Source: Thermoplasmatota archaeon
Lineage (GTDB): Archaea; Thermoplasmatota; Thermoplasmata; Thermoplasmatales; Thermoplasmataceae
Length of the DNA: 37,290 bases
Assembly: GCA_023379825.1 (NCBI GenBank)
Contig: JAMCPQ010000010.1
Span: 1-37,290, forward strand
Reading direction: 5' to 3'
Shown here: positions 161 through 4,542 of the stretch, piece by piece
Layout of the letters: each line of letters starts with the position of its first letter
Numbering within the stretch: position 1 is the first letter of the stretch
The notes under the pieces: model-generated
The model's database searches: none
Told to the model about the DNA's origin: nothing
Seen by the model: the letters and a program-made list of their open reading frames with translations, nothing else
Position numbers and translations under genes: made by a program

Positions 161-174
161 CGCTTTCCAGAAAT

Positions 175-184
175 CAAAAAATAG
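175..184 (+). promoter_or_regulatory. Probable TATA box of the C/D box sRNA
   Basis: The A/T-rich element CAAAAAATAG is centred near 180. A start site 26 nt downstream falls at about 206, at the terminal stem of the C/D RNA. This supports an independent promoter for the RNA, divergent from the deaminase gene. Confidence 0.4.
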
Positions 185-203: not shown

Positions 204-263
204 GCCACGATGATGAATTCAGCCTAGTCTGATTAGTGATGACCGACGGGCAGACTGAGTGGT
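204..263 (+). ncRNA. C/D box sRNA (2'-O-methylation guide)
   Basis: All elements of an archaeal C/D sRNA occur in order within 60 nt. They are a C box ATGATGA (210-216), a 12-nt guide ATTCAGCCTAGT (217-228), a D' box CTGA (229-232), a short spacer, a C' box GTGATGA (236-242), a second 12-nt guide CCGACGGGCAGA (243-254) and a D box CTGA (255-258). The ends CCAC (205-208) and GTGG (259-262) form a perfect terminal stem. In archaea such RNAs assemble with L7Ae, Nop5 and fibrillarin and direct 2'-O-methylation of the target base paired to the fifth guide nucleotide upstream of D or D'. Here that is a C in a target reading UCUGCCCGUCGG and a G in ACUAGGCUGAAU. Which rRNA or tRNA carries those targets cannot be told from this window. 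An upstream TATA-like box and downstream T-runs agree with a stand-alone gene. Confidence 0.87.
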
Positions 264-3509: not shown

Positions 3510-3529
3510 TACGTATTATCCCAAATATG

Positions 3530-3547
3530 GTGGAATGGCGTTTCCAC
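3530..3547 (+). other. Hairpin at the 5' end of the Ehr operon leader
   Basis: GTGGAA (3530-3535) and TTCCAC (3542-3547) form a perfect 6-bp stem with a 6-nt loop at the predicted transcription start. It could protect the mRNA 5' end or act as a protein-binding palindrome. The function is unknown. Confidence 0.35.
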
Positions 3548-3600
3548 GTTAAATAACTGCCAAAGTAACTGGCTAATGACGCCTGCAAGATGGTGTGAAC

Positions 3601-4542
3601 ATGTTTGCAGTCACTCTGGCAGAAACCATTGTTCAGTATTTATTTGTGGTTCTCAGCGCCCCGCTTTTTGCAGGAATAATAGCAAATGTAAAGGCGAAGG
3701 TTGAATCAAGGAAAGGTCCGGGTATATTCCAGCCATATTACGATCTTTTCAAACTTTTCAGGAAGGAGGTCCTGATTCCGGAGGATTCTTCCATTCTCTT
3801 TGTTCTTGTTCCGTACATTGCCTTCGGGGTATACTCGCTCATTGCCCTCATAATCCCTGTTCTGGTGCCTGAACCAATAATATTCACATATTCAGGAGAT
3901 TTCCTGGCAGGAGCCATATTATTCTCTCTGGCGGGATTCCTGAAAATGGCTGCTGCCATGGACAGCAGAAACAACTTCAGTGCCATGAGCGTCTCCCGCG
4001 CAGTTTCATTCACATTCCTCAGCGAGGCAACCCTCATCATGGTATTTTTTGGGGTTTCCCTGATCACCGGGACAAACAACCCCTATGTTACGAACCATTT
4101 CCTCATAAGCAATCCTGCATCAAACCTGAACCTGCCACATGTGTTCAGCACTCTTGCCTTCTTCATGATATTCTTCTATGAAACAGGAAAGATTCCCGTT
4201 GAGACGGAAGGTCTGCATGAGATGGGCATGATAGATTCAGGACTGAACTATGAATATTCAGGCAAGCTGCTTGCCATAAACAGATGGACCTCATACATGA
4301 AGCAGTATCTTCTGGGTGCAGTCCTGCTCAATGTGTTCCTGGTTCCATGGGGGCTTACAGCATCATTCCCCGGTTTTCTGCTGGACATCCCGGTTATGAT
4401 ACTGAAGTGGCTCCTCCTGATTCTTATTGTTGTTATAGTGGAGACAACACTGGCAAAGCTTCGTCTTTTCAGGGTGATAGATTACCTTGCAGTGGCACTG
4501 ACTTTCTCTGTGCTCTTCATAATTCTAAGCGAGGTGGTATGA
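3601..4542 (+). CDS. Membrane anchor subunit, HyfC/HycD/NuoH-like
   Basis: This is a polytopic membrane protein of 313 residues in the complex I subunit 1 / hydrogenase-4 component C family. The diagnostic cytoplasmic loop is present near the N-terminus: ESRKGPGIFQPYYDLFKLF followed by RKEVLIPE. A later conserved loop contains GKIPVETEGLHEM. The subunit forms the heel that joins the peripheral electron-transfer module to the ion-pumping arm and lines the quinone-like cavity. It is the first gene of the operon and is followed immediately (TGA then ATG) by the HyfE-like gene. An in-frame GTG at 3595 precedes the chosen ATG, and a GGTGTGA Shine-Dalgarno-like element (3592-3598) sits closer to the ATG. 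Sequence alone does not distinguish HyfC from other group 4 hydrogenase or Ehr homologues, so the call rests on the operon. Confidence 0.88.
   Translation: MFAVTLAETIVQYLFVVLSAPLFAGIIANVKAKVESRKGPGIFQPYYDLFKLFRKEVLIPEDSSILFVLVPYIAFGVYSLIALIIPVLVPEPIIFTYSGDFLAGAILFSLAGFLKMAAAMDSRNNFSAMSVSRAVSFTFLSEATLIMVFFGVSLITGTNNPYVTNHFLISNPASNLNLPHVFSTLAFFMIFFYETGKIPVETEGLHEMGMIDSGLNYEYSGKLLAINRWTSYMKQYLLGAVLLNVFLVPWGLTASFPGFLLDIPVMILKWLLLILIVVIVETTLAKLRLFRVIDYLAVALTFSVLFIILSEVV

Follow-up and report, generated by a model that had tools for sequence, protein, structure and literature searches.

C1402 of 16S rRNA, in the decoding region of helix 44, is the site of the bacterial modification m4Cm1402. In bacteria its modification is the work of RsmI/RsmH, protein-only enzymes that methylate the ribose without a guide RNA (PMC11542601; PMC5053481). 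Eukaryotes modify the same nucleotide by RNA-guided fibrillarin chemistry, using snoRNAs such as AtU43 for 18S Cm1639, Cm1703 or Cm1645 (PMC11542601). Table 2 of that 2024 review aligns E. coli Cm1402 (RsmI/RsmH) with yeast Cm1639, human Cm1703 and P. abyssi Cm1369, and Arabidopsis Cm1645, guided by AtU43, is given there as a further equivalent (PMC11542601). For H. volcanii 16S rRNA, no mark is listed at 1402, and C1404 carries a modification of unidentified type (PMC2584109). Helix 44 predictions are sparse in the survey of Dennis et al., which lists the equivalents of A1408 and G1494 and does not mention Thermoplasma in its main text (PMC4644070). We found no earlier description of the archaeal guide reported here in the main texts of the open-access papers searched, and no sRNA guide set for the archaeal order considered here in the literature searched.

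Among archaeal guide RNAs, the nearest described family is Rfam sR60 (RF01309), a C/D sRNA family. A sequence close to one end of the window (the whole 37,290-nt stretch of DNA analysed here, from an uncultured Thermoplasmata-type archaeon) has the architecture of sR60 and a near-identical D′ guide (UUCAGCCUA), whereas its D guide differs (CCGACGGGCAGA in the window versus GGGAGUGACGGA in sR60). In a cmscan of positions 100–400 (301 nt), sR60 was the best Rfam match at 42.3 bits (E = 3.5e-9), below the curated gathering cut-off of 50 bits, which makes it the nearest family rather than one to which the locus belongs by the cut-off rule. About 20 other C/D models matched the same strand and span at a permissive threshold. 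Because 42.3 bits falls short of the gathering score, a default Rfam scan of the window did not report the sRNA and returned a fluoride riboswitch as its only match. Taking all the evidence below together, we are highly confident that this locus encodes a double-guide sRNA with its own promoter, the D guide of which would direct Cm1402 and the D′ guide probably methylation of G902.

Every element of the complete C/D box sRNA proposed in the initial annotation is present (Table 1). As expected of archaeal C/D RNAs, it combines a box C of the form RUGAUGA with boxes D′, C′ and D (CUGA), spacers of 12 nt where 10–12 nt is usual, and a terminal stem adjoining boxes C and D. Its D guide is complementary to a stable RNA, with the target opposite D-5, and the D′ guide is weaker in this respect; fibrillarin is encoded in the same genome (E = 6.9e-48). 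Two 12-nt guides, flanked by the C/D′ and C′/D boxes, support the claimed double-guide design. The stem, first described as four perfect base pairs, comprises four Watson–Crick pairs between G204–C208 and G259–T263 with an additional G·U pair. On one side of the intergenic gap that holds the sRNA is a start at 131 on the minus strand, and on the other an open reading frame (ORF) for an amino acid permease; the initial annotation had expected gene finders to leave this gap empty. The minus-strand neighbour is a 43-amino-acid fragment, truncated by the contig end, that looks to us like a cytidine deaminase N terminus and had no match in Pfam.

Table 1. Positions in the window of the sRNA, its parts and its upstream elements.
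Feature	Position	Strand	Remarks
GAAA block resembling a BRE, with a TATA-like AT-rich box ccagaaatcaaaaaatag	168–184	+	about 20–36 nt ahead of the sRNA
C/D box sRNA, complete, double-guide	204–263	+	intergenic gap
Terminal stem, 5′ arm GCCAC	204–208	+	compensatory changes across 20 homologs
Box C ATGATGA	210–216	+	read from sequence; columns almost invariant in alignment A1
D′ guide attcagcctagt	217–228	+	C224 opposite G902 of 16S helix 27 GCAAGGCUGAA, predicted pairing
Box D′ CTGA	229–232	+	invariant in A1; degenerate in some genera
Box C′ GTGATGA	236–242	+	TGATG core invariant in A1
D guide ccgacgggcaga	243–254	+	245–251 against 16S helix 44 G1401–C1407, predicted pairing
Box D CTGA	255–258	+	invariant in A1
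Terminal stem, 3′ arm GTGGT	259–263	+	compensatory changes across 20 homologs

Relatives carry the same RNA. A DNA search of 60 relatives returned close homologs throughout the family, and a model of the sRNA (R1) had matches in 99 of 117 genomes from the order, three of these matches (G088, G091 and G102; E of about 1e-3) being unlike the sRNA on reading. In an alignment of 20 homologs (A1), the boxes were nearly invariant, 97% of terminal-stem cells were paired, and three of the five stem pairs showed two-sided changes. None of 500 shuffles reached the covariation score of the stem. Both checks in relatives suggested at the outset, covariance and conservation of the C/D boxes, thus came out in favour of the sRNA: it is confirmed as real, and chance is excluded.

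The TATA-like element noted upstream also proved real as a conserved feature. Across 55 distinct homologs, an A-rich BRE-like block lies at −36/−33, with A at −34/−33 in a fraction of about 0.8, followed by an AT-rich TATA region at −30/−23 (AT fraction 0.78–0.93 over −31 to −24) and by AT at −12/−11 upstream of the sRNA. This conserved layout is that of an archaeal BRE/TATA promoter.

The core of the D guide, GACGGGC, is complementary to GCCCGUC in helix 44 of 16S rRNA, a segment that corresponds to G1401–C1407 of E. coli, and G248 (D-7) then faces C1404. Paired with helix 44 of its own genome, the guide forms seven contiguous pairs (D-4 to D-10) and one at D-2, leaving D-1, D-3 and D-11 unpaired. 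The helix 44 sequence comes from a 16S 3′ fragment (G000:C52) that was found by pattern and carries GCACACACCGCCCGUCA, in agreement with a guide G; family models gave no hit to 23S or 16S rRNA in this assembly, which is 81.6% complete. On its own, a 7-nt match of this kind is within chance (shuffle P = 0.34 against 16S and 0.63 against 16S plus 23S), and single-genome complementarity was therefore rejected as proof of the D target. For the D′ guide (UUCAGCCU), helix 27 of relatives served for comparison, the genome's own copy lying outside the assembly; with the loop of this helix the guide forms eight contiguous pairs and one at D′-2, interrupted by an A–A mismatch at D′-3. In the relative G011, the D′ guide makes ten contiguous pairs (shuffle P = 0.0036 against 16S and 0.014 against 16S plus 23S). 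The initial annotation had predicted two methylation sites opposite perfect 12-nt targets. Its registers stand for G250 (D-5) opposite C1402 and, more tentatively, for C224 opposite G902, but the extent of pairing does not: no perfect 12-mer target for either guide was present among the top sites in the 16S and 23S rRNAs of relatives, and the best rRNA sites tested pair only in part.

The two guides differ in their history. The D′ guide UCAGCCU is pan-archaeal, recurring at loci of Thermococcales, Archaeoglobaceae and DPANN, and Thermococcus loci bearing the D′ guide of sR60 were found. Within the order, 66 of 95 genomes keep it (as UCAGCC or UUAGCC), and the other 29 have a replaced or degenerate version, so that the D guide emerges as the retained function while the D′ guide turns over. 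Helix 27 is nearly invariant in the order; in genera g9, g18 and g19 it reads GCAAGACUG, and the D′ guide has decayed there. A replaced or degenerate D′ guide next to an intact D guide was also seen in many of the loci L018, L023, L250, L273–L277 and L287–L300. Given the mismatch in the window and the turnover in several genera, G902 is a less secure target for the D′ guide than C1402 is for the D guide.

Two guides that reach distant 16S regions, both near the decoding site, could also serve mainly as a folding chaperone that joins strands of helix 27 and helix 44 during 30S assembly, with methylation secondary; double guides elsewhere in archaea have been suggested to act in this way (PMC4644070). 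Thermococcales would suit it, having retained the D′ guide beside a D guide (GGAGUGACGGA) that fits helix 44 best at an offset of +4, which by this geometry would be U1406, when compared with a standard archaeal helix 44 rather than with that of each genome. Compared in the same way, DPANN loci, which share the D′ guide to helix 27, have their D guide in the C1402 register; Aciduliprofundum, another distant archaeon, likewise keeps D-5 on C1402. Within the order this register is fixed, and the loss or degeneration of the D′ guide in several genera that keep the D guide argues that paired action is not generally required. We therefore consider a predominantly chaperone role unlikely and return to guided methylation of C1402.

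Natural variation at position 1404 bears directly on that target. U1404 occurs in 21 genomes of the order and C1404 in 49. Wherever both 16S position 1404 and guide position D-7 could be read (61 genomes), the two agreed without exception, C1404 accompanying a guide G (40 genomes) and U1404 a guide A (21 genomes). When the site was masked in a 16S tree, each trait changed five times, the changes of both fell on the same five branches, and all five independent pairs agreed; the corresponding sign test gives P = 0.0625, which is the floor for five pairs and cannot pass 0.05. With changes placed by branch length on a 16S tree in which position 1497 was masked too, the probability that both traits would hit the same five branches was about 2.8e-6. 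Position 1497 is A, not G, in all eight U1404 sequences inspected, which indicates that a C–G pair became U–A with the guide switching too. Several lineages of the order have U1404–A1497 for C1404–G1497 (loci L307, L308, L311, L312, L314, L067, L055 and L071). Lineages with U1404 cannot bear an H. volcanii-type C1404 modification on a C.

The identification of the D target thus comes from conservation and covariation rather than from complementarity in a single genome. A genuine C/D sRNA might still aim its D guide at another RNA (23S rRNA, a tRNA or an mRNA) and match helix 44 by coincidence, as the chance level of the 7-nt match would allow, and in G011 a 23S site near nucleotide 130 (ACUUCCCGUCG) outscores helix 44. 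That site fails to track the guide, reading ...CCUGUC in G017, where the guide has G, and was rejected as the D target because it does not co-vary; helix 44, by contrast, follows the guide throughout the 61 genomes and across five independent switches, which leaves a different target, looked for in 16S and 23S rRNA, very improbable. A fortuitous C/D-like sequence or unexpressed remnant, to which the sR60 score under the Rfam gathering cut-off might point, has a negligible chance of being correct in the face of matches in 99 of 117 genomes and of conservation or covariation in stem, promoter and target.

From sequence comparison, the D guide most likely directs Cm1402. We lean towards a further reading, in which the sRNA is tied to a highly conserved decoding-site pair and the guide has been forced to follow changes in its target, going from G to A in each of the five lineages where C1404–G1497 became U1404–A1497: Cm1402 would then be strongly selected, the mark near-essential in these archaea and the U–A pair a tolerated decoding-site variant. 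The sRNA would be transcribed from its own promoter. If it resembles characterised archaeal C/D sRNPs, L7Ae, Nop5 and fibrillarin would assemble on its C/D and C′/D′ kink-turns. The D guide would pair with helix 44 of pre-16S rRNA, allowing fibrillarin to methylate the C1402 ribose, and pairing of the D′ guide with the helix 27 loop would probably direct methylation of G902.

This type of sRNA is well known, and target evidence of such strength is unusual for it; a guide and target that change together at the decoding site provide rare evolutionary evidence of a target from sequence alone. A probable Cm1402 guide is now available for this archaeal order, and RNA guidance in archaea would join the bacterial protein and eukaryotic snoRNA routes to one mark. 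The letters that the D guide has in common with eukaryotic snoRNAs reflect their common target. The importance of Cm1402 becomes testable in cultured Thermoplasmata.

The surroundings of the sRNA vary, and synteny was set aside as additional evidence. The upstream start is common to 6 of 21 loci, and the permease was found only in a genome of the same genus; using a UbiD neighbour to retrieve further loci yielded nothing. One draft genome (G127) has two strong copies of the sRNA, at C16:7131–7198 and C30:39490–39558, which may reflect a duplication or contamination. In G019 (L301, 504–641), the sRNA stem begins directly behind tRNA-Pro(TGG) at 504–576 with zero spacer, and the same tRNA end precedes the sRNA in genus g18. 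PMC3491384 and PMC7994747 both contain the words dicistronic, tRNA and box sRNA.

The fluoride riboswitch (RF01734, 42.1 bits) lies at 3522–3592 on the plus strand of the window. It is directly upstream of an ORF of the NADHdh family (3595–4542), a complex I/hydrogenase subunit and not a known fluoride exporter.
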